Shown here: piece by piece, positions 1,081-24,705 of the stretch
Layout: the number at the start of each line of letters is the position of its first letter
Numbering within the stretch: the stretch's first letter is position 1
NCBI GenBank assembly: GCA_030536575.1
Contig: JAUNPS010000045.1
Span: 1 to 32,223 of the forward strand
DNA: 32,223 bases
Direction: 5' to 3'
DNA from: Eubacteriales bacterium
Lineage (GTDB): Bacteria > Bacillota > Clostridia > Lachnospirales > Lachnospiraceae
Position numbers and translations under genes: made by a program
The notes under the pieces: generated by a model
The model's input: the letters and a program-made list of their open reading frames with translations, nothing else
What the model was told of the DNA's origin: nothing
Database searches by the model: none

Positions 1081-1105
1081 AAAAAGCGGAAATCCCTACT
1101 TCCGC
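1081..1105 (-). terminator. Rho-independent terminator of the response regulator gene
   Basis: On the minus strand GCGGAA (1105-1100) pairs with TTCCGC (1091-1086), followed by TTTTTC. The stem includes the stop codon region of the response regulator gene, so it ends that transcript before the higBA operator. Confidence 0.65.
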
Positions 1106-2685
1106 CCCTTCCGCAAATCACTCCGATACTGCGCCGGCGTCGTATGATTCCGCTCCCGGAACACCTTCGTAAAATACGCCAGATTCGCATACCCCACCTG
1201 ATCCGCGATCTCCCCCACCGTCAGATCCGTCTCCTCCAGCAGCTTCGCCGCCTTCTCCATCCTGGCCCGCGTAATATACTCCGAAAGCTTCATCCCCATC
1301 TCCTGCTGAAAAATCCGCGACAGATAATCCGCGCTCATATACGCTTGTCCGGCCAATGTATTCCGGTTCAGCTCCTCTCCCAGGTGGCTGTCAATGTACC
1401 TCTTCGTCCGGCTGACCACCGACTCCTGACTCTCCGATTCTTCCAGGGAATTTCGCGCTTTCTCGATCACCGAACGGCTCCACTTCAGGAAATCCTCCAC
1501 CGTTCTCCCCCGGTACTGATACAGCGTCACCGCCGTCTCATCCTCCAAAAGCTGATGGGCCAGAAATCCCTTGTCCTCCAAAAACCCATAAAACGCCTGG
1601 GTAAAATCATGGCAGAGCTGATGCAGCACACCCCGGTCAATCCTCCGCTCATGGATCATCACCCGCAGGTCATGCTCGATCTCTTCCATCGCCTTATCGT
1701 ACTCCCGCCTGGCCAGCAGCCGCATCCACCCTTCGATATCCGGGCGGACATAGGGCAGCCGGGTATCCGCGTTTTCCATCCCATAGACGCCGGACCGCTC
1801 CGCTACATTATTGCCGTCCGCCTTCTCCAAAAGCTCATACTGAACGGCCAGTTCCCCCGGCTCCCGAAACTCTCCCACATAGCAGGAAAAGACAATCCCC
1901 AGCTCTTCCCGGCAGTTTTTGATAAAACGGCTGCAGTTTTCCAGCAGCGTCCGCCGGTACTCCTCCATTCCCTCCGCCTTTTCAACAATCGCCAGCAGCC
2001 GGTCCTCCCGGTACGCCGGAACCACCTGATTCCAGTCCTGGAAAACCGTTTTCTTCAATTCGTCTTTTAATTCTTCCGTCCGGTTCAGCCAGTTTCCCTG
2101 GGAGTCTCCCTTATGAATGCGAAACAGCACAGGCATACACAAATAATTTTCGTGGAACACCAGATGTTCTTTTGCCGCCTGCTCCCGGATCACCCGGCTG
2201 TCCGCGTCGATTTCCCGCTCCAGGACCCGCCGCCAGAACGTCCGCAGCCGATCCTTCTCCGCCGCAGTCCAGTATTCCATCCGCCGGTGGATTTCCCGCG
2301 TCTCCCTGGCCCTGTGAATCTGCTCCACTGCCTTTTGAAATACGTCATAGAGTTTCTGCTGCTCTATGGGTTTCAGCAGATAATCCAGCACCCCAAGCTC
2401 AATCGCCTGCTTCGCATAATTAAACTGCGCATAACTGGTCAGCAAAATGGTCACTGGCTTCCTTCCATGATCCCGAATCCATTCCAGCAAATCCAGCCCA
2501 CTTCCTTTCGGCATCTCCACATCCGTCAGGACAATCTCAATCTCGTGCTCTTCCAGCACCCGTATGGCCTGCTTCATACTATAAGCAGTAAAAACCTGAT
2601 CCACGCCCAGGGACTCCCAGTCTGTAGAGCAGCGCACGCCTTCGGCGCAATGTACTTCATCATCCACGATCAATACGCTTATCAT
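1096..2685 (-). CDS. YesN-type response regulator, receiver plus AraC HTH
   Basis: Cytoplasmic transcription factor of 529 residues. Residues 1-120 are a receiver domain with acidic D8/D9, phospho-acceptor D55 (in LTDVEMP), T83 and K105. A long linker follows. The last 100 residues are a double helix-turn-helix AraC domain ending in the signature IADQVGYANLAYFTKVFRE. The start at 2685 is chosen because GGAGGGAGGAAAG lies just upstream; an upstream ATG at 2739 adds 18 residues unlike the family. No histidine kinase gene is adjacent, so its partner is probably a YesM-like kinase elsewhere, possibly the one at 22116-23861. It lies 107 bases after the operon A isomerase gene and may be cotranscribed with that operon or control it. 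Confidence 0.9.
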   Translation of the reverse strand: MISVLIVDDEVHCAEGVRCSTDWESLGVDQVFTAYSMKQAIRVLEEHEIEIVLTDVEMPKGSGLDLLEWIRDHGRKPVTILLTSYAQFNYAKQAIELGVLDYLLKPIEQQKLYDVFQKAVEQIHRARETREIHRRMEYWTAAEKDRLRTFWRRVLEREIDADSRVIREQAAKEHLVFHENYLCMPVLFRIHKGDSQGNWLNRTEELKDELKKTVFQDWNQVVPAYREDRLLAIVEKAEGMEEYRRTLLENCSRFIKNCREELGIVFSCYVGEFREPGELAVQYELLEKADGNNVAERSGVYGMENADTRLPYVRPDIEGWMRLLARREYDKAMEEIEHDLRVMIHERRIDRGVLHQLCHDFTQAFYGFLEDKGFLAHQLLEDETAVTLYQYRGRTVEDFLKWSRSVIEKARNSLEESESQESVVSRTKRYIDSHLGEELNRNTLAGQAYMSADYLSRIFQQEMGMKLSEYITRARMEKAAKLLEETDLTVGEIADQVGYANLAYFTKVFRERNHTTPAQYRSDLRKGRK

Positions 2686-2740
2686 TTTTCTTTCCTCCCT
2701 CCGATGCAGTTTCTCCCTGAGCCGGGTATTTTTCAGCACG

Positions 2741-2778: not shown

Positions 2779-2792
2779 CCTTTCATTCTATT

Positions 2793-3707
2793 TTAAATCA
2801 CAAAATTTCTCAAATATTTTGTGCTCAGACGCACCGCATTCTTCGCATCCTCGATGGAACCTTCGAAAGCCTTGTCCTCCACCTCGATACAGGTATAGCC
2901 TTTATAACCGATATCGGTCAGCGCGGACACATATTTTCCCCAGTCCACATCACCCAGGCCCGGAAGTTTCGGGGACATGTACTGCAGCGGGGTCGCCATC
3001 ACGCCCACATCCGCCAGTTTGTCCGGATAAACCTTGATATCCTTGTAATGGACATGGAAAATCTTGTCTTTGAACTCATACAGCGGACGGATGTAGTCAA
3101 TCTGCTGCCAGATGAAGTGGGACGGGTCGTAATTGATTCCGAAATTGTCGTAATCCAGAATCTCGAACACCTGTCTCCAGATCGCCGGCGTGGTCATCAG
3201 GTTCTGTCCGCCCGGCCATTCGTCCTCGGTAAAGAGCATCGGGCAGTTTTCGATGGCTACCTTCACGCCTTTTTCTTTCGCGTGATCCAGGATCGGAGGC
3301 CAGATTTCCTTTACCAGTTCCAGGTTCTGGCTCACGGTCTTCTTCGGGTCTCTTCCCACGAAGGTCGTGATCATGTTGACGCCAAGTTTTGCGGAAGCAT
3401 CGATGAGTTTGTGCAGATGGGCAATGTAAGCGCTGCGCTTTTCCTCATCGGGATCCATTGTATTCGGATAGTAGGCCAGAGACGAGATCTCCACGCCCTT
3501 CTTTTTGCAGTATTCCTGAATCTCCTGGCAGCGCGCATCGTCCAGTTCATCCACATCGATATGGCTTACGCCCGCATACCGGCGCTCGGCTTTTCCTCTG
3601 GGCCAGCAGGCCACTTCCACACATTCCAGCCCGCATTCCGCCAGGAAATCAATCATTTCTTCAAAGCTCAATCCATCCAGGATTGCGCTGATCAATCCTA
3701 ATTTCAT
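2793..3707 (-). CDS. Sugar phosphate isomerase/epimerase-like TIM barrel protein
   Basis: Protein of 304 residues from the AP-endonuclease-2/xylose-isomerase-like TIM-barrel family. A divalent-metal site is visible: E153 in AIENCP, D194 and H197 in NYDPSH, H218/H220 in HVHYKD and E275 in CIEVED. The family includes sugar epimerases, keto-sugar isomerases, inosose dehydratase and metal-dependent lyases acting on 3-keto-glycosides; the exact reaction cannot be read from the sequence. AAGGAGGA lies at a good distance from the ATG. It is the last clear gene of operon A, 19 bases after a Gfo/Idh/MocA oxidoreductase gene. That pairing is typical of keto-sugar catabolism. No signal peptide, so cytoplasmic. 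Confidence 0.88.
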   Translation of the reverse strand: MKLGLISAILDGLSFEEMIDFLAECGLECVEVACWPRGKAERRYAGVSHIDVDELDDARCQEIQEYCKKKGVEISSLAYYPNTMDPDEEKRSAYIAHLHKLIDASAKLGVNMITTFVGRDPKKTVSQNLELVKEIWPPILDHAKEKGVKVAIENCPMLFTEDEWPGGQNLMTTPAIWRQVFEILDYDNFGINYDPSHFIWQQIDYIRPLYEFKDKIFHVHYKDIKVYPDKLADVGVMATPLQYMSPKLPGLGDVDWGKYVSALTDIGYKGYTCIEVEDKAFEGSIEDAKNAVRLSTKYLRNFVI

Positions 3708-3726
3708 CGGTTATCCTCCTTCTTGA

Positions 3727-4842
3727 TTAGAAGAATACTTCTTTTCCGGTTTCTGCCGCTTTATAGATGCCTTCCAGAATCTGCGTTACCACAAAGGCCT
3801 GTTCCGGTTTTACCAGGGGCTCCGTGTCATTCTTGATGGCGTTTAACCACTGCATGGCTTCTTTTACGCCGTCGGTCAGGGCCGGGCCGCTGAAGTAAGC
3901 GACTGCGCTTCCCGGAGAGCAATGCTCTTCCATCAGTTTTCCGTTATAGCCGCGGTTATATACCAGTTTGTCCTCTTTGTCTTTTACGCTCATACCGGAA
4001 CGGATTTCCGCACCTGCCTTGGTTCCGCAAAGGGTTGTCGCGGCTTCCTTCGCGCCCAGCATGTTCAGAGCCCAGGATGCTTCCAGGTAAATGGTTGCGC
4101 CGTTTTCCATTTTGATGAAACCGAATGCGGAGTCCTCTACCTCATAGGTCTTCGGATCCCAAGGCCCGAAAATGTTGCTCTCGGCGGCTTCTTCCAGATG
4201 GCCCAGTTTATAGAATACGGAACCGGAAACGGAAACGGGTTTGTAGTTGTCCATCATCCACAGGGTCATATCCAGCGCATGGGTTCCGATGTCGATCAGC
4301 GGACCGCCGCCCTGAAGAGCCTTGTTCGGGAATACGCCCCAGGTCGGAACTGCTCTGCGGCGCACGGCATGGGCTTTTGCAAAGTAAATATCGCCAAGTT
4401 CGCCAGCTTCGCAGGCTTTATGAAGGGCCTCAACTTCCGGACGGAAACGGTTCTGATAACCGATCGTAAATTTCTTTCCGGATTTTCTCCAGGCTGCCAG
4501 CATCTGGTTCGCTGCTTCGGTGCTGTGAGCCATGGGTTTCTCGCAGAGTACGTGTTTGCCGGCTTCGAAAGCTGCTACGGTAGCGGGTGCATGTACCACG
4601 TTCGGGGTCAGCACGTGTACCACGTCGATGGATTCATCTTTCAGCATTTCGTTGTAATCAGTGTAGGTCTTGGCGTCCGGCGTGCCGTACTCTTTGGCCG
4701 CTTTCACCGCGCGCTCTTCCACGATATCGCAGAATGCTACCATTTCGCAAAGCTCCGGCAGCGCCTGCAGGGACGGGAAATGCTTGTTAAAAGCGATTCC
4801 GCCGCAGCCGATAAATCCAATCTGTAATTTTCCGTCTTTCAT
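3727..4842 (-). CDS. Gfo/Idh/MocA family NAD(P)-dependent oxidoreductase
   Basis: Protein of 371 residues. An N-terminal Rossmann fold carries GFIGCGGIA at residues 9-17 and an acidic D39 at the end of the second strand. The family EKP motif is at 101-103 (K102 catalytic). The C-terminal half is the alpha/beta substrate domain with LIDIGTHALD, whose D and H match the family catalytic pair. Members oxidise or reduce a sugar hydroxyl or keto group using a nicotinamide cofactor. The start at 4842 is preferred over an ATG 15 bases upstream because GGAGG is correctly spaced only for the former. It lies between the GH140-like gene and the isomerase-like gene in operon A. Confidence 0.9.
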   Translation of the reverse strand: MKDGKLQIGFIGCGGIAFNKHFPSLQALPELCEMVAFCDIVEERAVKAAKEYGTPDAKTYTDYNEMLKDESIDVVHVLTPNVVHAPATVAAFEAGKHVLCEKPMAHSTEAANQMLAAWRKSGKKFTIGYQNRFRPEVEALHKACEAGELGDIYFAKAHAVRRRAVPTWGVFPNKALQGGGPLIDIGTHALDMTLWMMDNYKPVSVSGSVFYKLGHLEEAAESNIFGPWDPKTYEVEDSAFGFIKMENGATIYLEASWALNMLGAKEAATTLCGTKAGAEIRSGMSVKDKEDKLVYNRGYNGKLMEEHCSPGSAVAYFSGPALTDGVKEAMQWLNAIKNDTEPLVKPEQAFVVTQILEGIYKAAETGKEVFF

Positions 4843-4879
4843 GTTCGTATCCTCCATTTCATTTATTAAAAATTTATTT

Positions 4880-6286
4880 TTACCATTGAAATACTTTTTC
4901 TGCTTTGGTTTTTTCTTCGAATGAATAATATTCTTTATGCGGAACTGGATTTTCTTTCATTTCTTTCGAAGCAATCAAGATCCAATCCCGTTCGTTTCCC
5001 TGGGTGGGCGTCTCGATTTCCTTCCCGATCGTCCCTTTTCCTGTGGCGCAGCACGTTCCGGTTCTCGGATTATACCAGGTCAGATAGAGGTCTTCCCAGC
5101 CAAGGAGCTGGAAGTTTGGCTTCTGCCTGCCGCCTTTCGGGAAGTAGAGATAAACGCTGCTTCCGTCGGCCTTTTTACATGCCCGCACACCGTCCTGGGG
5201 ATCTTCCAGCAATTCCTGTGCCGGGACGCAGGTCTGAATCTGCGTGGCATCCAGGAATTCCCGCAGGAATTTCATCTGTCCGGAGCCTTCCGAATGGACG
5301 GCTTCGTACCAGGTATCGGGATGCATTTCATTGCGCTCCCGCTCGCTGATCATGCACCACACGGAAGCATGGCCGTAGGTGTAGCCGAATGCCCCGGCGA
5401 ATAGGCTCCAATATGCCCGTTTCCGTACCATCCAGGTTCCGTGGAACTCTGTAGTCACGGGCCAGTTGGTCGGCATTTTTTCGTAGGCGGGTTCGCCGTC
5501 CCAGACGGGTTTTGGCGGTTCCTTCTGATATTCTTCGTCGATCAGGCGGTCGTTGCGGGGCTGTTTTGTGTGGCCGGACTGTAACATGGTAAAACGAATC
5601 CAGGCTTCTTCCGGGCCCCAGTAGGAATAGGTGCTGCATTTCCCGGTTTCCATCTCGTAACAGGTGTGGTAGGTAATCAGCAATTCTTCCCAGGCCGGAT
5701 CGGCTTTTCGCGCATCCAGGTCTTTTCCGGTGACGCCTTTGGCCAGGCCTTCCGCCAGGGCACGCCAGACGTCCCGGTAGTCCACGCCTTTATGGATGGG
5801 CTGGCGGTCGCCGCCCAGGCACCAGAGGATGTTCGGACGTTTTCCGTAGCGGCGTCCGATCCATTCGCCGTAGCCTTTGGCGTTTGCCAGGGTGACGGTT
5901 TTCGGGAAGGTGTCTCCCCGCCAGTTGTCGCCCACGACCAGTTGGCCCCATACGGGGAGAAGCAGTACGTAGAATCCGTAGGCTTCCGCCCGGTCCAGGC
6001 ACCAGTCCAGCCAGGTGAAATAGGCTTCATTGGGTGTTTCCAGGTTCCCGTCCAGAAGGGCGGGGATTCCGGCGGGGTTCTGCATGCAGACGTCCCGTTC
6101 CGGGTCCAGGGCTACGATCTGAAGTACGGTAAAGCCCTGGCTTTTGCGTTTCTTCATATAATAATCGACGTCGTCCCATTTCAGGCGCTGGGGAAGTGTC
6201 CAGGCGGTATCCGCCAGCCAGGGAAACGGGGTTTTGTCGGGCAGTTCGAAGTATCTGCCGTTTTCTGAAATCTTCAGCCGTTCCAT
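4880..6286 (-). CDS. DUF4038 glycoside hydrolase, GH140 (apiosidase)-like
   Basis: Protein of 468 residues with the DUF4038 TIM barrel at about 10-350, followed by the small C-terminal beta domain often annotated as putative collagen-binding (about 380-468). Visible landmarks are PFPWLADTAW (20-29), LWCLGGDRQP (154-163; D160) and WDGEPAYE (262-269; E265), the likely acidic active-site residues by comparison with the family. Characterised relatives in GH140 release apiose from rhamnogalacturonan II; many homologues are untested, so the substrate is inferred only. The start at 6286 has AAGGA upstream; an upstream ATG at 6328 has none. No signal peptide, so it should act on imported fragments in the cytoplasm. 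It is gene 2 of operon A, between the two oxidoreductase genes. Confidence 0.85.
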   Translation of the reverse strand: MERLKISENGRYFELPDKTPFPWLADTAWTLPQRLKWDDVDYYMKKRKSQGFTVLQIVALDPERDVCMQNPAGIPALLDGNLETPNEAYFTWLDWCLDRAEAYGFYVLLLPVWGQLVVGDNWRGDTFPKTVTLANAKGYGEWIGRRYGKRPNILWCLGGDRQPIHKGVDYRDVWRALAEGLAKGVTGKDLDARKADPAWEELLITYHTCYEMETGKCSTYSYWGPEEAWIRFTMLQSGHTKQPRNDRLIDEEYQKEPPKPVWDGEPAYEKMPTNWPVTTEFHGTWMVRKRAYWSLFAGAFGYTYGHASVWCMISERERNEMHPDTWYEAVHSEGSGQMKFLREFLDATQIQTCVPAQELLEDPQDGVRACKKADGSSVYLYFPKGGRQKPNFQLLGWEDLYLTWYNPRTGTCCATGKGTIGKEIETPTQGNERDWILIASKEMKENPVPHKEYYSFEEKTKAEKVFQW

Positions 6287-6335
6287 TTCAGGTTCCTTTT
6301 CTGGGGAATTCTCCCCGTACATAGGCATTTATGGT

Positions 6336-7394
6336 TTATTCGAAATCTACGGATTTCCGAAGGGCCGCTGACTTCCGTGCAAGTTCCATGACCTGAAGTA
6401 CCCGGCGCACCTGTTCGGGTTTGACGACCAGTTCTTCTTCGCCGTTCAGGACACCCACCAGGTTGCGGAAGAAGTCGTTCCAGTCGTTGTGTTTCCGGTG
6501 GATTTCCGGAAGGGGTTCGGTGGAAACTACGTCTTCGGCTTTTACGGAGAAGGTGCGGGTGGGGCCTGCGTCAATGTTTTTGACGGTTTTCGGGAGGGAT
6601 TCCCGGAATTCTTTGGCCCGGTAAATGGCGCCTTCGTCGGCTTTGATGTTTTCGACGACCAGGGTGCCTGTGTCACCGGCTACGTACCAGCGGGGCAGTT
6701 TCTTTAACAGGAAGGTGCCCAGTTCGATTTCTGCGGCCAGGCCGTTGTCGAAGTAGAGCAAGATCCGGAAGTAGTCGTCTACGGATTTGTTTACGGCGCA
6801 TTTCATGTCGGCGCTGATCTGGGTGATTTTTCCGGGGATCAGGTCGAGCATCTGGTCGATCAGGTGGACGCCCCAGTCGTAGAGCATGCCGCCGCCGCAT
6901 TCGGGGTATTCGTGCCAGTCGTGCATGCGGCCGAAGACGCCGTAGTGACTGGATTTTATCATGTAGACATTGCCGAGGGCGTTTTCTTCCAGGACTTTCT
7001 TAACCGTGCAGTAGTCGCGGTCCCAGCGGCGGTTTTGGTCTACGGTGAAGAGGACGCCATTTTCCTGGGCGGCCTGGTACATTTCGTCAAATTGGGCGAC
7101 GTTCAGGGCACAGGGTTTTTCGACGATGATGTTCTTTTTGGCTTTGGCGGCGTCGATGGCGATGTCGCGGTGCAGGTGGTTGGGGACGGAGATCATGACC
7201 CATTCCACGTCCGGGTCTTTCAGGAGATCCTGGTAGGCCGAGTAGCGTTTCACGCCTGCCGGGGCTTCGGAAAGTTTTTCCGGGTCGGTGTCGCAGATTG
7301 CGGTGATTTCGACTTCGTCCAGGGTGCCGGCGTGGTTGTTGTGCCATTGGCCCATGAAGCCGTAGCCGATGATTCCGAGTTTGAGTTTTTTCAT
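6336..7394 (-). CDS. Gfo/Idh/MocA family oxidoreductase (second copy)
   Basis: First gene of operon A, 352 residues. The Rossmann motif GIIGYGFMG is at 7-15, acidic D35 ends the second strand, and EKP is at 92-94 with catalytic K93. The C-terminal domain has the YDWGVHLID motif with D and H in family positions. It is clearly diverged from the oxidoreductase at 3727-4842, so the pair is not a recent duplication, and two different oxidation or reduction steps are likely. GAGGATG precedes the ATG. The promoter lies at 7444-7507 and shares a distinctive upstream element with operon B. The coding strand here favours C-ending codons, unlike the genes at 1-3 kb. Confidence 0.9.
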   Translation of the reverse strand: MKKLKLGIIGYGFMGQWHNNHAGTLDEVEITAICDTDPEKLSEAPAGVKRYSAYQDLLKDPDVEWVMISVPNHLHRDIAIDAAKAKKNIIVEKPCALNVAQFDEMYQAAQENGVLFTVDQNRRWDRDYCTVKKVLEENALGNVYMIKSSHYGVFGRMHDWHEYPECGGGMLYDWGVHLIDQMLDLIPGKITQISADMKCAVNKSVDDYFRILLYFDNGLAAEIELGTFLLKKLPRWYVAGDTGTLVVENIKADEGAIYRAKEFRESLPKTVKNIDAGPTRTFSVKAEDVVSTEPLPEIHRKHNDWNDFFRNLVGVLNGEEELVVKPEQVRRVLQVMELARKSAALRKSVDFE

Positions 7395-7443
7395 CTTTCG
7401 TCATCCTCGCTTTCTTTGGGTTCGGTTCGTGTTTGATGATTGT

Positions 7444-7507
7444 ATTATAGCTTGGATGGTGGGTTGAGGCTATGGTTATTCTTTCGCAAAACTACGCATA
7501 TCTTTAC
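7444..7507 (-). promoter_or_regulatory. Operon A promoter with shared activator element
   Basis: On the minus strand the -10 TATAAT is at 7449-7444, with no recognisable -35. A 19-bp element, GTAAAGATATGCGTAGTTT (7507-7489), lies exactly 39 bases upstream of the -10, and CATAGC (7474-7469) overlaps the -35 position. Both blocks recur at the same spacing upstream of operon B (15896-15959). AAAGA is repeated 21 bp apart within the site, consistent with a dimeric AraC-type activator. Transcription should start near 7437, giving a leader of about 43 bases. Confidence 0.75.
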
Positions 7508-7832
7508 ATTCGAGGAGCCAGACGCGGGGCGCCAGGAAGCATAGGGCGTCGTGGATTGCAGGACGCCGCCGCGTCAGCGAAAACCTTTCGGGGAACGGGG
7601 CAACGTCATCGTCAAACTTCCCCTAACTGCGACTAGGACACTCAGGAGAGCCCTCGTGCCCAAGTCTTAGTAAGGGGCGATTTCGACTCTTCCTAAGTGC
7701 GCCCCTCGAAACACGTCCCCGCCAGCCTTCCGCTTCCCCGACGGCTGGCTTTGAATGCCTCTGCTTTTATCTTGGCTGCGGGGATTTGGCGGCGTCTCGA
7801 AACACGCTCTAAACCTGCCCCTCGAAACACGT
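7508..7832. other. GC-rich non-coding block of unknown origin
   Basis: About 325 bases between the end of operon B and the operon A promoter. No frame here has a credible start, ribosome binding site or protein-like composition. The block contains repeated GCCCCTCGAAACACGT units, a GCCAGCC/GGCTGGC hairpin (around 7721-7750) and a short complementary pair, AAGGGGCG/CGCCCCT. It could be an intergenic repeat element, a structured 3' untranslated region or a small RNA. I do not recognise it. Confidence 0.45.
7701..7832. repeat. Three copies of a GCCCCTCGAAACACGT repeat
   Basis: Two perfect 16-bp copies are at 7701-7716 and 7817-7832. A degenerate copy, TCTCGAAACACG, is at 7795-7806. The last copy abuts the stop codon of the operon B terminal gene. 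The copies are irregularly spaced, so this is not a CRISPR array. Confidence 0.7.
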
Positions 7833-10800
7833 TCACATAGCTTTCTTGGTTAGCCAGTCCGCCAGCAGGCCCGCGATTTCGGCGCTGTTTTTTTCCAGCA
7901 TCATCATGTGGCCGTTTCCGTGGATGCCAAGGTCGGGGAGGTGGAGGTAGTCGGCGGGGACGCCTGCCTGGGTTAGGAAGGCGGCGGTCTGCCAGTCGAA
8001 GGCGGCGTGGTAGGAGCATTCGCTGGTGAGGAGCAGGGTCGGGATGCCCGTTAAGTTTTTGAGTTTGCGGGCGGGTTCGGTCTGGAGATAGCCTGCGGCT
8101 GGCCTGCCGCCGGTTTCTTCAGGGCGGAAGGGGCGGATGCGCAGGTCGCCCGCGGTCTGGATCGGCGGTTCGAAGGTTAGGGGCAGGTGGGCGATTCCCC
8201 AGTTCGTGGGATGTCCGGTTTCGTCGATCTGAGGTTTTCCGGTCTGGATGTTGACGAAGGGCGGGCCGGAGGGCTCCACGGCGATCATGGCTTTTACGAG
8301 ATCCGGGCGGGCGTCGCCGATTTCCCAGACGCAGGGGCCGGCCTGGGAGTGGCCGATGACGATCATCGGCCCCGCCTGGTCTAATAGGGCGCAGGCTGCA
8401 TCCCGCACCAGCTCCTGTGTTTCCGCAATGCCGACCAGGCAGTCTACCTGGGAGGCATAGAACGCGTCAAAGACCGGGTCGCCGGGATATCCGGCGTTCT
8501 CGCCGCCCGGCCACTGGGTATGCGCGCACCCTTCCACCGCGGAGGGCCCGGTAAAGCTGTTTACGATTTCCTGGGTGGAAAAGGTATACCGCTCCCCGCG
8601 AAGCGTCCGGTGGCATGCGGAGCGCCCCCGCTCCGGCTGGTCTGCCACATAGACCACGTAGCCCTGGTTTAGGAAGTCCCAGGCCCATCCGGGACGTCCG
8701 TCCGGGGCGTACATCCAGCAGCTCCCGGTCTGGGCCGCGCCGTGGAGGAACAGCACCGGATAGGGGTGGCGGATTTCTTTTGGAACATAAACTTCCACGT
8801 ACATCTGCCCGGCAAAGCATTGCTTCCCGTCCACTTCGGTATAGGCTCCACCCGCATAGAGGAACCCTCTGGAATCCAGCATGGACATGTCCTGAAGCGG
8901 GATCGGCAGCTTCATACCCTGGAGCGGACGCGGCGACTCTATATTCTGGAGCGGATGCGGCGACTTTTCGGACTTTTGCCCGCACTCCTCCAGATAAATC
9001 GTTCCGGTAATGCCGGAACCGCATGTCGGGACAGGCCCCTTTTTCGTAACCGGATACATCTCCCGTTCGAGCGTGGTCGCCACTTCGATGCACAGTTCAT
9101 TTTCGCCCTCATGCAGAAGGCCAGTCAGGTCATAGCGGTAAGGCGGCGCGATCTGGATTCCGGCGCTTTCGCCGTTGACAAAAACCTCCACACCTTCAGC
9201 CGCATCTTGGATTTCGAGCAGCAATTCCGTTTCTTTTTTATAAAAAATATGATTCGTATAGCGTACAAAACCGGAAAATGTGGGATTTTCCTCGGCAAGT
9301 CTGTCCGGTATGGATACCGATGTTTCTTCTTTAAAATTCGGATAATCGATACTTCGGCAGATGCTGCGCTTCCAGCCGGAAATAAAAGGCTTTCTCGCTT
9401 CTGTCAGGAGAATCGGTTCTTCCAGCTTTCGCGCCGTTTCATCAAAAACAACGATAAGTGGTTTCAGAGGTTCCAGGCATACGCGAAGTACGGTTCCCTC
9501 TTCGGTTTCTTCTGCCTGCAAGGTTTCCAGCCGGTTATCCCACGCATTGTACGCATAACAGCGGCCTTTCTGCCGAATCCGAATCTCTCCGGTATAGGGT
9601 TTCGCGCCCTCATTCGAAAGCAGATACAGATCGCTTCCATTCTGGCGATGCTGGTAATACTGATAATGCAAATAGCGCAGGTAACGATTCCCCGGAACCA
9701 CCTCGATTTCCCGAATCGAAAGGCTTTCCAAAACCTCCAAAAGCTCATCCAGTTTGACGCAGAGACAGTCTTTCAACTCAGCCGGAAGCACGCCTTCCCC
9801 GCTGCAAATCCCTTTCGGCCGCTGATCGATAAAAATCACATGGCCGCCCTGCTTTTGCAGTTCCGCCATCCCTTCCGCAGCTTCCTTCGTGATATAATCA
9901 TACGCCGGAACCACCAGCACCTCATACATCTGGCCGTTCACATGAAGTTTTTCAGAAACCTCTGTCCCGAATGCAGCCCTGTCTGCGAACACATCCGACG
10001 GGATAAAATCATAGTCAATCTGTCCGTCTGCCAAAGACACCGCCGGTTCCTGCATCATCATCGCACTTCCGCACCAGTCCGATTCGCCCTGGTACAATAT
10101 CCCTACCGGGGCAATGTGCCTCCCATCGTTTATCAGCTCGCACACCCGGTTCCCATACGCCATCAGCTTCCCAAAATGCCGGTACTGCGGATTATTCCCA
10201 TGCGCATAAAAATGCGGCGGACAGTCCGGGTCCGGAAACTCCTTGGCGGAAAACGCATGGGGAACATAGTGGTTAATCCCCCGCACCAGAAAATGATCCA
10301 GCAGGTACTTCTCCAGATGCACCCCTTCCGACCATCCATACGCCCCAAAGACCTCGCACATGGAGCGCCCCTTCTTTAACGGCTCCAGCGCCGCCGCCGA
10401 AGCCGCCAGCTTCCCCAGCGCATAATGATAGAAATGGCCGTCCCGCTTCGCATCCCCTTCTTCCCGCTGGGGCAGAACCTGCCCGACAATGTCGTCGATT
10501 CCAGCCATATCCTGTCCGGCCAGCCCCCTAAAATAGTGTCCCAGACTGCTGCCCGTCCGGCTGTGCTGGTTATTGTCCTCAATCAGATGGCCAATGTATT
10601 CCACACCGTGTTCCCGGCACCAGTCGCCGATCTGATAAGAGAAATCCCGCTTCACGGCCTTTGTCACCGCATTCATATAGTCATAACGTGCTTTGGCGCA
10701 GAGATCACTTTCAAAAGGCTGTTCCCAAATCAATGGCAGATACAGCGCATACCGCTCGCCCCAGCATTGTTTCAGCTCCGCTTCCACTTCCCGGCTCCAG

Positions 10801-11612
10801 GCCTGGTCATCCAACTCACTGATCTTCTTCCCCGTCTCGTACAGGTGGCCATTCCCAATCTCCGGCTCATCCGAAAAAAACCCGGCAATCGTCTTCCCGA
10901 AATCCTCCCCATAATGCTGATAATGCGGCTCATAAACCGTATCGATCAGCACCCGGCAGCTCGCCGCATCCATCATATTGATATAATCCCGGTGGGGCCC
11001 CCGGTTCCTGGTCAGATAGCAAAGGGCCAGCTTCCACTTCCCTTCCGGAACTTCAAACCGAATCCGGTTTTCCGGAATCTGCCCGGACAAATCCCGCAGA
11101 TCCTCCTCGCCGCTTCCCCCTTCCCGAATCGCTGTCACACTCACCAGACAGTCGTCCGAAAAAAACGGAAGTTCTTTTTTAATCCACGCATCCATCGCCG
11201 TCGGCTTCCAGGGACTCGCCGACTGTCTGTCCTCCAAGGACAGTTCCATCACGGTTCCACTTTCGGTGCAGGCCACCGTCTCCATCACAAGGCTCTGCCT
11301 GCGCAGGGAAATGTCCTGTTTTTCCATGGCTCCGTTCGCATACCCGGTGGGGAAATGGCTGTCGTCCAGAATCCAGACTTTCATGTCCCGCTTCCTGGCC
11401 TCATCCAGGATCACATCCATGTCCTTCCACCATTTCTCCCCCAGGAAATCCGGGTGCGGGCGGCTCTCCACACAAACCGCCCCGATATTGCTCTCGTGAA
11501 TCACCTTCATATACTCCCGCAATACCTCTTCGGACTCCCCATGCTGCCAGAAAAAGGGGAAAATATAATTTCCGCCCCGGTTTTCCAGTAATTTCTCCAC
11601 TTTCTGATTCAT
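7833..11612 (-). CDS. GH106-like glycosidase fused to an alpha/beta hydrolase (esterase-type)
   Basis: Two-enzyme protein of 1259 residues. Residues 1 to about 560 resemble the GH106 (alpha-L-rhamnosidase) and related clan: FPFFWQHGE near 20, FFSDEPE with E249, and MCEVFGAYGWSEG with E420 and E429. A beta-sandwich sugar-binding domain with VFVNGESAG and NELCIEV lies at about 780-875. A linker at 884-910 consists of three 9-residue repeats. From about 913 an alpha/beta hydrolase follows: LFLHGAAQTG oxyanion region, GHSQAG nucleophile S1089, candidate acid E1198 and H1235 in GNGHMM. The second domain probably removes an ester or acyl group. No signal peptide. AAAGGA precedes the ATG, 12 bases after the GH3 gene. 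Last gene of operon B. The exact sugar and acyl specificities are unknown. Confidence 0.82.
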   Translation of the reverse strand: MNQKVEKLLENRGGNYIFPFFWQHGESEEVLREYMKVIHESNIGAVCVESRPHPDFLGEKWWKDMDVILDEARKRDMKVWILDDSHFPTGYANGAMEKQDISLRRQSLVMETVACTESGTVMELSLEDRQSASPWKPTAMDAWIKKELPFFSDDCLVSVTAIREGGSGEEDLRDLSGQIPENRIRFEVPEGKWKLALCYLTRNRGPHRDYINMMDAASCRVLIDTVYEPHYQHYGEDFGKTIAGFFSDEPEIGNGHLYETGKKISELDDQAWSREVEAELKQCWGERYALYLPLIWEQPFESDLCAKARYDYMNAVTKAVKRDFSYQIGDWCREHGVEYIGHLIEDNNQHSRTGSSLGHYFRGLAGQDMAGIDDIVGQVLPQREEGDAKRDGHFYHYALGKLAASAAALEPLKKGRSMCEVFGAYGWSEGVHLEKYLLDHFLVRGINHYVPHAFSAKEFPDPDCPPHFYAHGNNPQYRHFGKLMAYGNRVCELINDGRHIAPVGILYQGESDWCGSAMMMQEPAVSLADGQIDYDFIPSDVFADRAAFGTEVSEKLHVNGQMYEVLVVPAYDYITKEAAEGMAELQKQGGHVIFIDQRPKGICSGEGVLPAELKDCLCVKLDELLEVLESLSIREIEVVPGNRYLRYLHYQYYQHRQNGSDLYLLSNEGAKPYTGEIRIRQKGRCYAYNAWDNRLETLQAEETEEGTVLRVCLEPLKPLIVVFDETARKLEEPILLTEARKPFISGWKRSICRSIDYPNFKEETSVSIPDRLAEENPTFSGFVRYTNHIFYKKETELLLEIQDAAEGVEVFVNGESAGIQIAPPYRYDLTGLLHEGENELCIEVATTLEREMYPVTKKGPVPTCGSGITGTIYLEECGQKSEKSPHPLQNIESPRPLQGMKLPIPLQDMSMLDSRGFLYAGGAYTEVDGKQCFAGQMYVEVYVPKEIRHPYPVLFLHGAAQTGSCWMYAPDGRPGWAWDFLNQGYVVYVADQPERGRSACHRTLRGERYTFSTQEIVNSFTGPSAVEGCAHTQWPGGENAGYPGDPVFDAFYASQVDCLVGIAETQELVRDAACALLDQAGPMIVIGHSQAGPCVWEIGDARPDLVKAMIAVEPSGPPFVNIQTGKPQIDETGHPTNWGIAHLPLTFEPPIQTAGDLRIRPFRPEETGGRPAAGYLQTEPARKLKNLTGIPTLLLTSECSYHAAFDWQTAAFLTQAGVPADYLHLPDLGIHGNGHMMMLEKNSAEIAGLLADWLTKKAM
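8883..8963 (-). repeat. Tandem 27-bp repeat encoding the interdomain linker
   Basis: Three in-frame 27-bp units (8963-8937, 8936-8910, 8909-8883) encode SPHPLQNIE, SPRPLQGMK and LPIPLQDMS at residues 884-910. The first two are very similar at DNA level; the third has diverged. The repeat sits exactly between the glycosidase and esterase parts, so it looks like an expanded Pro-rich spacer formed by slippage or unequal crossing-over. Confidence 0.8.
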
Positions 11613-11624
11613 ACGCCCATTCCT

Positions 11625-13841
11625 TTAATCTTTTATCAGTACAAAACTCCTCTGATTCTCTGTCTCGCTGCTGTTTCCAACAAAGACCCGGAACTCGCCC
11701 GCTTCGCTTACGCGTCCCTGGCCTTCCTTATAAAACCGCAGCATTTCTTCGCTGATTTCAAAAACAACCGTTTCCACTTCACCCGGCTTCAGGGTCACTT
11801 TCCGGAAGTCCTTCAGCTCCTTCACCGGACGCGCCACGCTGGCCGCCACATCCCGGATATAAAGCTGCACGACCTCGGTTCCTTCGCATTTTCCAATATT
11901 TTTCACGGTAACGCTCGCCGTCACCGTCTCGCCAGGACGCAGGGTTTCCCGATCCAGGACAAGTTCCGAAATCGAAAATTCCGTGTAGCTTAACCCATAT
12001 CCGAAGGGATACAGCGGTTTATTCGGAATATCCAGATACCGCGAAAGGAACCTGTCTTCATCCCCTTCTTTGTAGGGACGCCCGGTATTCAGCGCATTGT
12101 AGTACACCGGAACCTGTCCCACGCAGTACGGGAAGGACATGCTGAGTTTGCCGGACGGATTCACCTTCCCGGTGAGTACATCCGCAATGGCATGTCCCCC
12201 TTCCGTCCCCGGCATCCACACTTCCAGCACCGCCCGCGCCTTCCGGCTCACTTCCCGCAGATCCAGCGGCCGCCCGCTAAAGAGCACCACAACCACGTTT
12301 GGATTCACCGCGGAAACCTTCCGGAACAGTTCCATCTGGATCTCCGGAATCTCGATCATTGCGCGGCTGGCCGCCTCGCCGGACTGCAGATAGTGTTCTC
12401 CCAGCGCCAGAATCACCACGTCAGCCTCCTTCGCCGCATTGCACGCCTCTTCTTCCATCTGACGGCACTCTTCGGCACTGTACTCCATCTTTTCCTCTGT
12501 CCGGAATCCCACCAGGCGCACGCCGTTTTCCAGAAGGGGGCTGCCCTGGCAATAAGCCATCCGCTCCGGCGCAAAGACTTCCTGGGCCGCCTCCTGAATG
12601 GTCACGCTGTCCTTCGCTTCCCCGGCCACAGCCCAACTGCTCAGCATCTCTTTCCGGTTCACATACGGCCCAATAAACGCGATTTTCTGTTCGGCAGACA
12701 CCGGAAGCACCCCGTCATTTTTCAGCAGGACGAAGGATTTCGCCGCCGCTTCCCTGGCCAGCGCCCGATGCTCCGGACACAGAATCACTTCTTTTTCCTT
12801 CTCCGGGTCTGCATCCTTAAAAGGATTTTCGAACAGGCCCAGGTCATTTTTCAGCTTCAGAATCCGCCAAACCGCCTCGTCCAGCAGCCTTTCGTCAATC
12901 TTTCCCTCTTCAATCAGCCTGCACAGATTTCCGGAATACACATTCGTACACATATCAATGTCTACGCCCGCTTCCAGCGCCTTCTTCGCCGCGTCCGCCT
13001 TATCTTCCGCATAGCCGTGATTGATGGTTTCCAGGATCGCCGCAAAATCCGAGATCAGCACGCCCTCGAACCCCATCTCATCCCGCAGAATGTCCCGCAT
13101 CAGATGCCGGTTTCCCGTGGCCGGAATCCCGTCCACCGTATTAAAGGACGTCATCACCATGGCCGCGCCGGCCTGAATCCCCGCCTCATAAGCCGGAAGA
13201 TAGGCATTCCGAAACGTGTGCTCGCTGATTTCCGCCGTATTATAGTCCCGGCCCGCTTCCGCCGCGCCGTACCCCGCAAAATGCTTCACGCACGCCGCCA
13301 CGCGCCCCGGCTCCTTTAAATCCTTCCCCTGGAATCCCTTCACCATCGCCGCCGTCATCCGGCTGTTCAGATACGGATCTTCCCCGGTGGACTCCATCAC
13401 CCGGCCCCATCTGGCGTCCCGCACCAGGTCGGCCATGGGCGAAAAGGTCACATGAAGCCCGGAAACCGCCGCTTCCTTCGCCGCCGTCTGCGCGCATTTT
13501 TCCGTCATCTCCGGGTCAAAGGACGCGCCCTGCCCGATGGGCGCCGGAAACACCGTGCGCATCCCATGAATGATATCCTTCATAAACAGCATCGGAATCC
13601 CGTGGGGCTGGCGCTCCATCTGCAATTTCTGCAATGCAATCAATTTTTCCGCCCCATGTGTCCCGATCGCCGCCCCGGCCAGGTCAAAATCCTCTTTCTC
13701 CCAGCCGAATCCCGCCGCGGAACCCATCAGCGCATCGTCCGTATTTTCCATCAGAAAGCGCGCCATCACCTGAAGGGTCTGGCCTACTTTCTCTTTCCTT
13801 GTCATCGAGTTTAAAAGCTGTTTTAATTCCTGTTCTGTCAT
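11625..13841 (-). CDS. GH3 beta-glycosidase
   Basis: Protein of 738 residues with full GH3 architecture: N-terminal (beta/alpha)8 barrel with KHFAGYG and the nucleophile D265 in LISDFAA, an alpha/beta sandwich domain with ALGEHYLQSGEAASR where E489 is the likely acid/base, and a C-terminal fibronectin-III-like domain (PFGYGLSYTEF onward). Family members remove terminal beta-linked glucose or xylose, or alpha-linked arabinose; the exact sugar cannot be told. The nucleophile motif is SDF rather than the common SDW. No signal peptide, so cytoplasmic. AAGGAGGA precedes the ATG. The ATG overlaps the stop of the MFS gene as ATGA, indicating translational coupling in operon B. Confidence 0.95.
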   Translation of the reverse strand: MTEQELKQLLNSMTRKEKVGQTLQVMARFLMENTDDALMGSAAGFGWEKEDFDLAGAAIGTHGAEKLIALQKLQMERQPHGIPMLFMKDIIHGMRTVFPAPIGQGASFDPEMTEKCAQTAAKEAAVSGLHVTFSPMADLVRDARWGRVMESTGEDPYLNSRMTAAMVKGFQGKDLKEPGRVAACVKHFAGYGAAEAGRDYNTAEISEHTFRNAYLPAYEAGIQAGAAMVMTSFNTVDGIPATGNRHLMRDILRDEMGFEGVLISDFAAILETINHGYAEDKADAAKKALEAGVDIDMCTNVYSGNLCRLIEEGKIDERLLDEAVWRILKLKNDLGLFENPFKDADPEKEKEVILCPEHRALAREAAAKSFVLLKNDGVLPVSAEQKIAFIGPYVNRKEMLSSWAVAGEAKDSVTIQEAAQEVFAPERMAYCQGSPLLENGVRLVGFRTEEKMEYSAEECRQMEEEACNAAKEADVVILALGEHYLQSGEAASRAMIEIPEIQMELFRKVSAVNPNVVVVLFSGRPLDLREVSRKARAVLEVWMPGTEGGHAIADVLTGKVNPSGKLSMSFPYCVGQVPVYYNALNTGRPYKEGDEDRFLSRYLDIPNKPLYPFGYGLSYTEFSISELVLDRETLRPGETVTASVTVKNIGKCEGTEVVQLYIRDVAASVARPVKELKDFRKVTLKPGEVETVVFEISEEMLRFYKEGQGRVSEAGEFRVFVGNSSETENQRSFVLIKD

Positions 13842-15010
13842 CTTCGCGAATCCTCCTTCTTTTTCTTTTCACGCAGGACAAAGTACACCCATGCCGCGGC
13901 AATTGGAATCGCACACAGCATATACATGGTTCCATAGCCTGCCTGTTCTGCTAAGGCTCCGCCTAAAATCGGCCCGACAGCCTGTCCCAGGTCGCCGCCG
14001 ATATACATCGTACTGCTGGCAAGCCCCCGCTTTTCCGGAGGCACGCTCTTAAACGCTTCCGTCTGAAGAGCCGGCTGGGACATGCCCTGTGCAATGGCCT
14101 TCGTGCACCCGGCGATCAGAAGCACCGGAAGCGACCAAGCATTCCCGATCAGCAAAAGTGTCGCCACCCCGCAGACAAAGGCCGGATACAGGTTCTTTCC
14201 CAGCGACCACTGGTTCATCTTCTTCGCCAGCAAAATCCTGGTCGCGATCAGCACGACCGCATTCACCGTGAAATGCAGATCCACATTGGAAATGGCCCGC
14301 TCCGCCGCAAACGCCACCAGAAAGGTGCTGACCACCCCGTTCATCATGGTAAACGACGCGTTCACGCCGGAAAGCCCGATCAGGCTTTTCTCCGCAATCA
14401 CCAGTTTTCTTTTCCCCTGCTGCTCCACCTTCTTTTCCGGCGGCGTGTAGGGGTACAGAAGCGACGCAATGGAAGCGATGGACAGCATGACCGTCCCAAC
14501 CAGCATACACACCCGGTAGCCCGCCGTACTGCTTAACCAAATTCCCAGGCTTGGCCCAATCGCCATACTCGCCACAGACATCAGCCCGTAGTAGCTGATG
14601 GCCTCGCCCATCCGTTTTTCCGGTACGCTCTCGCTGACCAGCACCAGGCTGGCCGTGCTGGAAATGCCGAAAGCCACGCCGTGGAGCCCTCGGAAACATA
14701 TTATCACAGGAATGCTTGGAATGACAGAATAAAGAAGGAGAGAGATTGTCATGAGTACCGTAAAGCCTGCCATCAGGTGTTTGCGGTTTTTCGTATCTGC
14801 CAGGACGCCGCTTACGGGCCTGGAAAACAGAGAGGTAAAGGCAAACAGGCCGCCTACAATTCCACAAATGGACACACTCGCTCCAAGTGTGCCCATATAT
14901 CCGGTCAGAACCGGTGTGATCATATTATAGCTCAGCCATGCGAAGAAGTTCGTCACAGACAGCAGGATGTAAGGTTTTGTCCACAAACCTGACTTTTCTG
15001 CCGTACTCAT
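13838..15010 (-). CDS. MFS transporter
   Basis: Integral membrane protein of 390 residues with about 12 hydrophobic segments. The loop between segments 2 and 3 carries SGVLADTKNRKHLM, the major facilitator motif A. The family transports small solutes by ion coupling. In this operon it may import a glycoside or, equally, export an aglycone or acid released by the encoded enzymes; direction cannot be inferred. The start at 15010 forms an ATGA overlap with the stop of the isomerase-like gene; a TTG two codons upstream is an alternative. A GGGGG run lies just upstream in the end of the previous gene. Confidence 0.88.
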   Translation of the reverse strand: MSTAEKSGLWTKPYILLSVTNFFAWLSYNMITPVLTGYMGTLGASVSICGIVGGLFAFTSLFSRPVSGVLADTKNRKHLMAGFTVLMTISLLLYSVIPSIPVIICFRGLHGVAFGISSTASLVLVSESVPEKRMGEAISYYGLMSVASMAIGPSLGIWLSSTAGYRVCMLVGTVMLSIASIASLLYPYTPPEKKVEQQGKRKLVIAEKSLIGLSGVNASFTMMNGVVSTFLVAFAAERAISNVDLHFTVNAVVLIATRILLAKKMNQWSLGKNLYPAFVCGVATLLLIGNAWSLPVLLIAGCTKAIAQGMSQPALQTEAFKSVPPEKRGLASSTMYIGGDLGQAVGPILGGALAEQAGYGTMYMLCAIPIAAAWVYFVLREKKKKEDSRR

Positions 15011-15867
15011 TCCCAAACAATCCCCCTATACTTACGGAAGCCTTCCATGCTGACTTTTACGCTCTCAAGCTGGTTCAGTTTCGTCGCATCCTGTTCCAGA
15101 ATGATGTAGTCCACGCTTCCCATCTCATTTGCGGTGTCGATAATGGACTGGATATCCATGCAGCCGTAGCCGATTTCAATGAAGTCGTCATTGCACTTCG
15201 TACCTACCCAGAGTTTCTGGTCGATGACCGTATCTTTTCCGACAACGTCGAACATGTTCACCGGATTCTTAGAGTCTTTGACCAGGTCTTTCTGATGCAG
15301 CTTCTTGATCCGGCTTCCGAAATGCTTCATGACTTCCACCGGGTCCAGGCCTGCGCGAAGCGTCCAGTACGTATCCAGCTCCAGGTTTACGTGGGCCGGG
15401 TCGGTATTGTTCACGATGGCGTCCATGACGGTTTCGCCGTCGAATTCCTGGAATTCATGGTAATGGTTGTGGTACAGGAAGGTCATGCCCTCTTCGGCGG
15501 CCATCTTTCCCATCTGCTCCAGAAGTTCCACCTTGCGCATCACGTCGTCCCGGCTGGAGAAGTAATCCATCGGGTAGATGACGGTGGTGTTGCCGATCTT
15601 CTGGTTGTATTCGATGACTTTTTTGTAATTGTCCAGGTTAAACGGATAAATGTGTGCGCTGACTACCTGCGCCCCCGCGTCGTCCAGCACTTTTTTCAGT
15701 TCTTCTGCGCTGACACCAAAGCCGATGCCCTGATCTTCCAGCGCGTTGTGGTTCGCCGCTTCCAGGTATTTGTAGCCCGCTTCCGCTACCTGGTAAATGG
15801 TCTTGATGGGATCTGCTTTCATCAGTTCCCGAACCGAATATAATTGGATACCTACTTTTAATGCCAT
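15007..15867 (-). CDS. Sugar phosphate isomerase/epimerase-like TIM barrel protein (second type)
   Basis: First gene of operon B, 286 residues. TIM barrel of the xylose-isomerase-like family with the motif YHNHYHEF (132-139; E138), LELDTYW (D165), LHQKD (H191) and ILEQD (E258) forming the expected metal site. It belongs to a different subfamily from the protein at 2793-3707, closer to those annotated as IolE-like or as sugar isomerases acting with Gfo/Idh/MocA dehydrogenases. GAGGAAA precedes the ATG, and the stop overlaps the MFS start. Expression comes from the promoter at 15896-15959. Possible roles are isomerisation of a keto-sugar or beta-elimination of a 3-keto-glycoside; neither is proven here. 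Confidence 0.88.
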   Translation of the reverse strand: MALKVGIQLYSVRELMKADPIKTIYQVAEAGYKYLEAANHNALEDQGIGFGVSAEELKKVLDDAGAQVVSAHIYPFNLDNYKKVIEYNQKIGNTTVIYPMDYFSSRDDVMRKVELLEQMGKMAAEEGMTFLYHNHYHEFQEFDGETVMDAIVNNTDPAHVNLELDTYWTLRAGLDPVEVMKHFGSRIKKLHQKDLVKDSKNPVNMFDVVGKDTVIDQKLWVGTKCNDDFIEIGYGCMDIQSIIDTANEMGSVDYIILEQDATKLNQLESVKVSMEGFRKYRGIVWE

Positions 15868-15895
15868 AGCAATTTCCTCGCTTTCGTTTTCTTTT

Positions 15896-15959
15896 ATCGT
15901 ACCGCATTTCCCTTTTCCGCGCTATGTCCTTCTTTGTGGGAAACTACGCATATGTTTAC
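15896..15959 (-). promoter_or_regulatory. Operon B promoter with shared activator element
   Basis: Minus-strand -10 TACGAT (15901-15896). The element GTAAACATATGCGTAGTTT (15959-15941) lies exactly 39 bases upstream of it. CATAGC is at 15926-15921, overlapping the -35, which otherwise lacks consensus. It matches the operon A promoter in 18 of 19 positions of the main element, with identical spacing. Predicted transcription start is near 15889, about 22 bases before the ATG. Confidence 0.75.
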
Positions 15960-15984
15960 TTCTCTTCAATATCCCTTCCCCGCA

Positions 15985-15997
15985 GCCGGGGCCCGGC
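15985..15997 (-). terminator. GC-rich hairpin after operon C (weak terminator candidate)
   Basis: GCCGGGGCCCGGC lies immediately after the stop codon of the last operon C gene. The stem is strong but no U-tract follows on the minus strand, so termination by this hairpin alone is doubtful. Confidence 0.35.
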
Positions 15998-16000
15998 GGC

Positions 16001-17446: not shown

Positions 17447-17486
17447 GGCGCACCTCCCGTTCCCACCGGGGACATTCCCCGGCCTT

Positions 17487-18620
17487 TTATTGAAATTGTT
17501 CAGAAATCAGTTCCGCCGCAATCGCAAACCCGGTCTTCAGGCTGTCCGTGTAAATCCATTCCTCTCTGGTATGGGCCTGTCCCCCCAGACAAAGCCCGAT
17601 GGTCGCCGCCGGAATCCCCAGAGAAAACGGGATATTGCAGTCCGTGGATGCGGAGGTAAAGCCCGGCATCCGCCCGCTGTGTTTCGCGATAATGTCCCTG
17701 CACATATTCGAAAGCGCTTCCTGCGCCGGATTCTTCGCGTCTTTCCGCCCGCAGGGCCGCTCGCCCATGATCTCTACATTGACCTCCAGCCCTTTGTTCC
17801 GGAAATCCGCCACAACCCGTTCAAAATTCTCACGTACCAGGGCCATGCTTTCCAGATTGTCCGAACGGAACTCATAGAGCATTTCCGCCTGCTGTGCGAT
17901 CGTGTTGACGGAAGTCCCTCCTTTGACCACGCCCACATTGTAGGTGGTCTTGCTTCCGTCCTGGGGCACCTGATATTTGTACAATTCCTGGATCATCGCC
18001 GCCAGTTCCGCCAGGGCGTTCCGGTTTCCGAAATTAAAATACGAATGGCCGCCCTCGGTCTTCACTTCCACGCGATACCGGGTGGAACCCACTGCGCAGT
18101 TGCACACTTCGTCAATGTAGCCGTCAAAGGATACCACCTGCGCCAGGCTGTCCTGATACCGCTTCACAAGCGCCTTGGAGCCTTTCAGATTTCCCAGGCC
18201 CTCCTCACAGGAATTCGCCGCGAAAATCAGGTTCCCTTTCGTTTCCGGCTGATACTGCGCCGCGTATTTAGCCATCAAAAGCAGGATCGCCACATTAGCC
18301 GTGTCGTCTCCAACGCCCGGCGAGAACATTTTCCCGCCCTCTTCCCGGACGCCCATGGACTCCATATCCGGAAATACCGTATCCGTATGGGCCATGAACA
18401 GCGCGGTGGGCTTCCCTTCCTCATACCGGTAAGGGTAGATCACATTTTTCGCCTCGTCGATAAAGACGCCTTTGGCTCCCTGGTTTTCCAGCCATTCTTT
18501 GATGAACGCTGCCCGGCGCTCCTCGTAGTGGCTGGGGGCCGGGATCTTGCAGAGTTCCCACAAGAGTCCCTTCACCTCGTCCTGATGCTCTTTTACAAAT
18601 GTTTCCAGTCTTTGTTCCAT
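17487..18620 (-). CDS. M20 family metallopeptidase (PepT-like)
   Basis: Protein of 377 residues. Metal ligands are visible as MAHTDTV (H78, with D80), GVGDDTAN (D105), SCEEG (E139/E140, catalytic base and ligand), SFDG (D166) and the C-terminal QAHTREEW histidine. The family removes N-terminal residues from short peptides or hydrolyses N-acyl amino acids. AAAAGGATG precedes the ATG, and the gene starts 6 bases after the stop of the permease gene, so it is firmly in operon C. Length and motifs look complete. It probably works with the AbgB-like enzyme on the same imported molecule. Confidence 0.88.
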   Translation of the reverse strand: MEQRLETFVKEHQDEVKGLLWELCKIPAPSHYEERRAAFIKEWLENQGAKGVFIDEAKNVIYPYRYEEGKPTALFMAHTDTVFPDMESMGVREEGGKMFSPGVGDDTANVAILLLMAKYAAQYQPETKGNLIFAANSCEEGLGNLKGSKALVKRYQDSLAQVVSFDGYIDEVCNCAVGSTRYRVEVKTEGGHSYFNFGNRNALAELAAMIQELYKYQVPQDGSKTTYNVGVVKGGTSVNTIAQQAEMLYEFRSDNLESMALVRENFERVVADFRNKGLEVNVEIMGERPCGRKDAKNPAQEALSNMCRDIIAKHSGRMPGFTSASTDCNIPFSLGIPAATIGLCLGGQAHTREEWIYTDSLKTGFAIAAELISEQFQ

Positions 18621-19517: not shown

Positions 19518-19528
19518 CTCGCCACCTC

Positions 19529-20449: not shown

Positions 20450-20473
20450 GGTTCATTCCTCCCTTTTGGGTGC

Positions 20474-20502: not shown

Positions 20503-20539
20503 CCCTCGCTTCGTTCATAGTCTTATTTCTGCTGTAGAA

Positions 20540-22113: not shown

Positions 22114-22115
22114 CG

Positions 22116-24694: not shown

Positions 24695-24705
24695 AATGCA
24701 CCTTC

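Follow-up and report, generated by a model that had tools for sequence, protein, structure and literature searches.

A candidate AraC-type operator shared by two putative glycoside operons in a Lachnospiraceae genome

Two operons on the minus strand of a 32,223-nucleotide stretch of DNA from a Eubacteriales bacterium of the family Lachnospiraceae (contig JAUNPS010000045.1 of assembly GCA_030536575.1; the whole stretch is called the window) have promoters that carry the same two blocks of bases at the same spacing. Do these blocks form an operator and, if so, which protein would bind it and what would the genes behind it be for? We consider it very probable that the module is a bipartite operator, made of two direct half-sites with a period of 22 base pairs (bp), of an AraC-cupin regulator encoded at 23852..24787 (minus strand), and that it would co-activate the two operons, here called A and B. 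Judged by sequence, the module is a real, conserved AraC-type operator with a small regulon; its particulars are new, its kind is known.

A two-block module before operons A and B

The module of operon A (7507-7444, minus strand) reads GTAAAnATATGCGTAGTTT, n14, CATAGC, n19 and the -10 hexamer TATAAT, that of operon B (15959-15896, minus strand) GTAAAnATATGCGTAGTTT, n14, CATAGC, n19 and the -10 hexamer TACGAT. In operon A the distal block, GTAAAGATATGCGTAGTTT, occupies 7489..7507, the proximal block CATAGC lies at 7469..7474, approximately at the expected -35 position, and the -10 follows 19 bases past it at 7444..7449. The corresponding elements of operon B are GTAAACATATGCGTAGTTT at 15941..15959, CATAGC at 15921..15926 and the -10 at 15896..15901, all likewise on the minus strand.

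The original prediction, made from the letters of the window, had reported a long shared block at a constant distance from the -10, and both points are borne out. All 18 of 18 fixed bases of the distal block are present in each copy, the two copies are identical at 18 of its 19 positions with the sole difference at the N position, and 39 bases separate the block from the -10 in A and in B. The proximal CATAGC is identical at 6/6 positions and the -10 at 4/6. The spacers, by comparison, match at only 4/14 and 3/19 positions. This divergence had been taken to mean that the likeness is not that of a duplicated region; the spacers do differ, but the argument is weaker than stated, as the leaders also share an 11-base element, GAAAGCGAGGA. 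It stands just ahead of the start codons of both operons, at 7404..7414 in A and, identically, at 15875..15885 in B (both minus strand), and at differing distances from the -10. A search of 130,922 bases of other loci of the same genome (about 2.7% of it) gave no exact match to this element and five with one mismatch. Because it is shared by the two leaders and has no exact match in those other loci, one promoter may be a copy of the other in which the operator was kept while the remainder drifted.

Scanned at up to three mismatches, the window yields A and B as its sole matches, and 100 shuffles yield none. The genome to which the window belongs (4,810,403 bases in 100 contigs, 90.73% complete) has six places at this threshold, namely A and B, which are exact, and four with three mismatches; the reversed-pattern control also gives six, so these four are at chance level. 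Many unrelated copies had been named as the outcome that would speak against a dedicated operator, and this genome has no copy beyond A and B at up to two mismatches. A pattern that includes the proximal ATAG and the -10, built from A, B and the two sites described below, likewise returns A and B only. One 3-mismatch copy, L006 (C79:41188-41206), lies upstream of a TATAAT at a quite different spacing, and the bases downstream of that TATAAT resemble those of operon A; it is probably a chance copy.

The operator in related genomes and its likely regulator

Homologues of operon B gene 1, an isomerase-like protein, were sought at E<=1e-30 in 397 genomes of the family and are present in nine, the window's own genome included. 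One of these is G398, which belongs to another genus. Here the distal block GTAAAGATATGCGTAGTTT recurs exactly and is followed by n14, AATAGA, n19 and TATAAT, and this operator precedes the gene for an isomerase-like protein 42-43% identical to operon B gene 1. The G398 block (L057, minus strand, 2309-2327) consists of the last six codons and the first stop-codon base of a same-strand AraC-cupin gene, and it is a candidate binding site inside a coding sequence.

The fixed-spacing scan that the original prediction had called for, carried out on the own genome and its relatives, leaves A, B and G398 as the only exact places among the 397 genomes. At up to three mismatches the two-block pattern occurs at 16 places in 14 genomes, and TAnnAT stands at the fixed -10 place in the three exact ones only. 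The other 13 places all lack TAnnAT, the nearest being the TAAAAA of L074 and L077; 11 of them overlap open reading frames (ORFs) on either strand and two (L078 and L080) do not. The reversed control on the same genomes gives 25 places (a hand count of the table) against these 16, so the inexact 3-mismatch matches are background. A search with the 19-mer alone was set aside: it gave 20 places at up to two mismatches in 16 of 61 genomes, the own genome included, against 29 (again a hand count) for the reversed control, and none of its hits outside the own genome has CATAGC at the fixed place, L008 in G037 being one base off.

The fourth site was reached without use of the motif. The AraC protein of G398 was searched for in the four genomes of its genus, and in one of them, G423, an AraC protein 59% identical to it was found. 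Its gene is followed by GACAAGATATGCGTACTTT, n14, GATAGA, n19 and TATAAT, and then by an orthologue of the isomerase gene; the block sits past the AraC stop codon and matches 15/18 fixed bases. When scored over the 26 block positions that are invariant in A, B and G398, the G423 site reaches 23/26. The best of 3000 dinucleotide-preserving shuffles of the 300-base upstream region reaches 18, and eight other isomerase-homologue loci, from seven genomes with no AraC orthologue at E<=1e-35, score 13-15. The G423 isomerase gene is in turn followed by that of a histidine kinase 39% identical to the window kinase at 22116-23861, which adjoins the AraC gene of the window. The earlier view that the module is a selected AraC-type operator gains from both genomes, in that G398 keeps the same bases and spacing and G423 has an operator at the expected place.

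The four sites give the consensus G++AA+ATATGCGTA+TTT n14 nATAGn n19 TA++AT, in which + marks positions alike in three of the four. The distance from ATAG to the -10 is fixed in all four sites. The CATAGC said to overlie the -35 is thus identical in A and B, but only its ATAG is invariant across species. The four sites match the four-site pattern by construction; it has four further hits (one in G422, two in G093 and one in G002, all with three mismatches; control 0), none of which was accepted as a site. Three of these overlap ORFs of at least 100 codons; the fourth, L125, lies clear of such ORFs and reads AAAG where the sites have ATAG.

The recurrence of TAG at 22 bp, also noted originally, is confirmed as the TAG-to-TAG distance in the module. 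Over the four sites, 22 is the best internal self-match among offsets 14-29 (25/48), the next being 28 (19/48). In G398 the repeat is plain to the eye, with GATATGcgTAG and GATATGaaTAG 22 bp apart.

Could the module instead have no function as an operator and be left over, neutrally, from a promoter-leader that was duplicated or from the end of an AraC gene? The element GAAAGCGAGGA, common to both leaders and with no exact match in the 130,922 bases searched, and the distal block of G398, which continues the reading frame of the last AraC codons, are what such an origin might leave. Against this, the spacers of A and B have diverged while the blocks and their spacing have held, and in G423, where the AraC stop codon comes before the block, n14, ATAG, n19 and TATAAT still follow it. 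We regard a neutral remnant as very unlikely.

Two AraC-type proteins of the window had been put forward as regulators of the proposed operator. One is strongly supported. This is the AraC-cupin protein at 23852..24787 (minus strand; an alternative ATG start at 24694 is equally likely), which has an N-terminal cupin domain (PF02311) and two helix-turn-helix motifs at the C-terminus (PF12833/PF00165), all above cut-off. The AraC protein that adjoins the operator in G398 is 49-50% identical to it (49% over 263 residues). Used as a query against the own genome, the G398 protein finds the window AraC at E 2.1e-84 and the next of its 111 matches at 5.9e-25. These 111 AraC-type matches (E<=1e-5) in 4.8 megabases are a large set. 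Orthologues of the AraC protein at E<=1e-35 are present in 2/397 family genomes, the own genome and G398, and these are the identical two that have the operator with TAnnAT at the fixed distance. In all three AraC orthologues the second recognition-helix region is DIKTFNKLFK or DVKTFNKLFK (D[IV]KTFNKLFK), a motif found in 0/31 of the other AraC-type proteins of the own genome that were examined (29 loci and two window response regulators, out of 111 matches in total). An order-level search of 392 genomes found no orthologue in the 391 besides the own; a class-level search of 137 genomes found two weak matches (32% and 26%), whose loci have no operator at up to six mismatches. A likely regulator can be named because two related bacteria keep the operator beside the gene for this AraC protein.

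The other candidate, the AraC-type response regulator then placed at 1096-2685 and here at 1096..2739 (minus strand), is not supported. It is encoded last in operon A and might bind the operator and so regulate its own synthesis; both its place in that operon and its AraC-type DNA-binding domain would suit such a role. That domain, however, is just 28-31% identical to that of the operator-adjoining AraC protein of G398, the recognition-helix regions of the two differ, and the G398 query finds the response regulator only at E 5.5e-11. It has no close orthologue in 200 family genomes, the best non-self match being 31% identical, and for this reason its relatives were dropped as a source of footprints; a scan of named organisms gave four distant matches. 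We judge it very unlikely to be the binder.

Several observations weigh against the AraC-cupin protein and its operator as drawn here. The pair is seen in three genomes only, two of which are of one genus, and the AraC orthologue is missing from two of the four genomes of that genus. In the family and order searches, only the best few AraC candidates per genome were scored. In the vicinity of the AraC gene, which lies about 8 and 16 kilobases from the window operators, the window scan at up to three mismatches found no copy of the operator. Across species the proximal half-site shows weak conservation, and in G423 alone the half-site repeat is weak, with 4/12 matches at offset 22 against 6/12 at offset 28. 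Since GAAAGCGAGGA is common to the two leaders, an older common descent may explain part of their likeness. The regulon is patchy, since neither of the other two genomes in the genus of the window has the operator, save for one 3-mismatch hit within a reading frame; and because 3-mismatch hits are background, diverged sites would go unrecognised. Finally, binding, activation rather than repression, the ligand, co-expression and the operon boundaries are what we infer from these comparisons.

Genes of the regulon and their neighbours

That the module unites operons A and B, as originally proposed, is supported by G398. There the operator heads a run of three genes, for an isomerase-like protein, a Gfo/Idh protein and an M20 peptidase-like protein, which are 42% identical to operon B gene 1, 54% to operon A gene 3 and 49% to the M20 peptidase-like protein M20b of the window (17487..18620, minus strand). 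Operons A and B belong together because relatives of both share this one run behind the operator. The single run of G398 would appear, in the window, to be spread over two operons that each have an operator of their own, and over M20b, for which there is no further operator copy in the window.

Operon A (minus strand throughout) begins with a DgpA2-like Gfo/Idh/MocA oxidoreductase at 6336..7394 (Pfam; nearest structure PDB 9m37, E 2.2e-93). It continues with an apiosidase-like glycosidase at 4880..6328 (Pfam Apiosidase, E 1e-92), a second, DgpA-like Gfo/Idh/MocA oxidoreductase at 3727..4857 (PDB 7xr9, E 4.4e-157) and an AP_endonuc_2 (sugar isomerase-like) protein at 2793..3707. The similarity of the third protein to DgpA (7xr9) spans residues 10-371 of 376. 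No apiosidase-like gene is present at E<=1e-30 in the remaining two genomes of the genus to which the window belongs. The response regulator at 1096..2739 ends the operon and is a possible ninth target.

Operon B, also on the minus strand, opens with the AP_endonuc_2 (sugar isomerase-like) protein at 15007..15867 (Pfam), whose nearest structures are 8tcd (E 2.4e-21) and 8tcs (E 2.5e-21). An MFS transporter (13838..15016, Pfam) and a GH3 beta-glucosidase (11625..13841; BglX model 736.1 bits, cut-off 666) follow. The last gene (7833..11612) encodes a protein of 1259 amino acids that is just below the Pfam cut-off. It has a weakly rhamnosidase-like region at about 532-847, which scores far short of the family cut-off for the full model. 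Near the C-terminus, at about 910-1122, is a region that resembles alpha/beta hydrolases. The protein is possibly a glycoside-ester enzyme with two activities.

The regulon probably serves the breakdown of plant glycosides, a role made likely by the two DgpA-like oxidoreductases that operon A encodes. DgpA converts puerarin to 3''-oxo-puerarin (PMC11239390).

Two further groups of genes lie beside those described above. A HigB-like toxin gene and a helix-turn-helix antitoxin-like gene (window 359-1077, minus strand) come after the response regulator of operon A, and a promoter at 1049-1021, at the start of the toxin ORF, reads TTGACA-17-TATAAT and matches the sigma-70 consensus at 12/12 positions. 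The region 18627-31609 has two ABC sugar-transport sets, between which lie the genes of two histidine kinases, the AraC protein and one response regulator. The permeases of the two sets are 40% and 45% identical, their binding proteins about 25%.

Proposed mechanism and known systems

In the mechanism that we propose, two subunits of the AraC-cupin regulator would occupy the operator in head-to-tail order: GATATGCGTAG would take the distal subunit and nnATAG, near the would-be -35, the proximal one. The cupin domain of the regulator would sense a ligand derived from a glycoside and so trigger activation; from the presence of this domain one would expect the ligand to be small, plausibly a glycoside or a keto-sugar. 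The bound regulator would most likely recruit RNA polymerase (class II activation), because the -10s of the promoters are graded good or fair and there is no usual -35. Hexamers at 17-bp spacing match TTGACA at just 2-3 of six positions in all four promoters, and a sigma-70 consensus scan of 1-18000 listed neither the A nor the B promoter. Operon A would thereby be switched on, providing the two DgpA-like oxidoreductases, the apiosidase-like enzyme, the isomerase-like protein and possibly the response regulator. Operon B would be switched on jointly with it, adding its own isomerase-like protein, the MFS transporter, the GH3 glucosidase and the hydrolase of 1259 amino acids.

The proximal block overlies the -35 position, and binding over that position can also block the polymerase. 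The regulator might therefore act as a repressor, or through DNA looping, rather than as a class II activator. We think this unlikely, as all four promoters lack a usable -35 and this suggests that they depend on an activator.

Sequence comparison here names a likely regulator, its operator and probable targets for a DgpA-type pathway. The breakdown of plant glycosides by bacteria helps to decide which flavonoids and other aglycones reach the host. The locus is also a clear case in which one operator is kept nearly exactly and the gene order around it has changed. Our literature search, with most subscription journals outside its coverage, found no regulator of a DgpA-type pathway; the papers on DgpA-type enzymes that it covered deal with the enzymes and their gene clusters. 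The chances seem to us evenly balanced that this is the first regulator and operator named, in the literature searched, for DgpA-type (3-keto) glycoside breakdown, and that the single run next to its AraC gene in G398 has been split, in the lineage of the window, into two operons with operator-promoters of their own. The wiring would then have been kept while the genes were scattered and GH3, apiosidase-like and esterase-type enzymes were gained.

The targets are best compared with the dgp C-glycoside cluster (PMC8563793, PMC11170127), since the products of genes 1 and 3 of operon A closely resemble the DgpA proteins of structures 9m37 and 7xr9. A possible difference is that a Pfam scan of 20 proteins of the window, which included no DgpB model, recognised no DgpB/DgpC pair; with regard to such a pair it showed AP_endonuc_2 proteins only. 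The dgpBC genes are described as lying apart from dgpA in one species (PMC11170127). The word 'AraC' is absent from the main texts of both cluster papers.

The arrangement of the operator has parallels elsewhere among AraC-type regulators. The XylS/Pm system, as described in PMC5481539, has two homologous direct repeats that are read by two recognition helices beside the promoter, like the module. Its repeats are unlike the module in being 15 bp long, in consisting of TGCA and GGTA boxes 6 bp apart and in their sequence, and its effectors are of the benzoic acid type. Another parallel is MtlR, of the AraC/XylS type, at the PmtlE promoter of Pseudomonas fluorescens. The organism, regulator and targets are others, and binding and induction were measured there and are inferred here. 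In PmtlE the direct-repeat blocks, 15 bp long, span -72 to -58 and -50 to -36. Subtraction gives them a period of 22 bp, as in the module; they stand upstream of the -35 and serve an activator of sugar catabolism, in that case of mannitol (PMC4514859).

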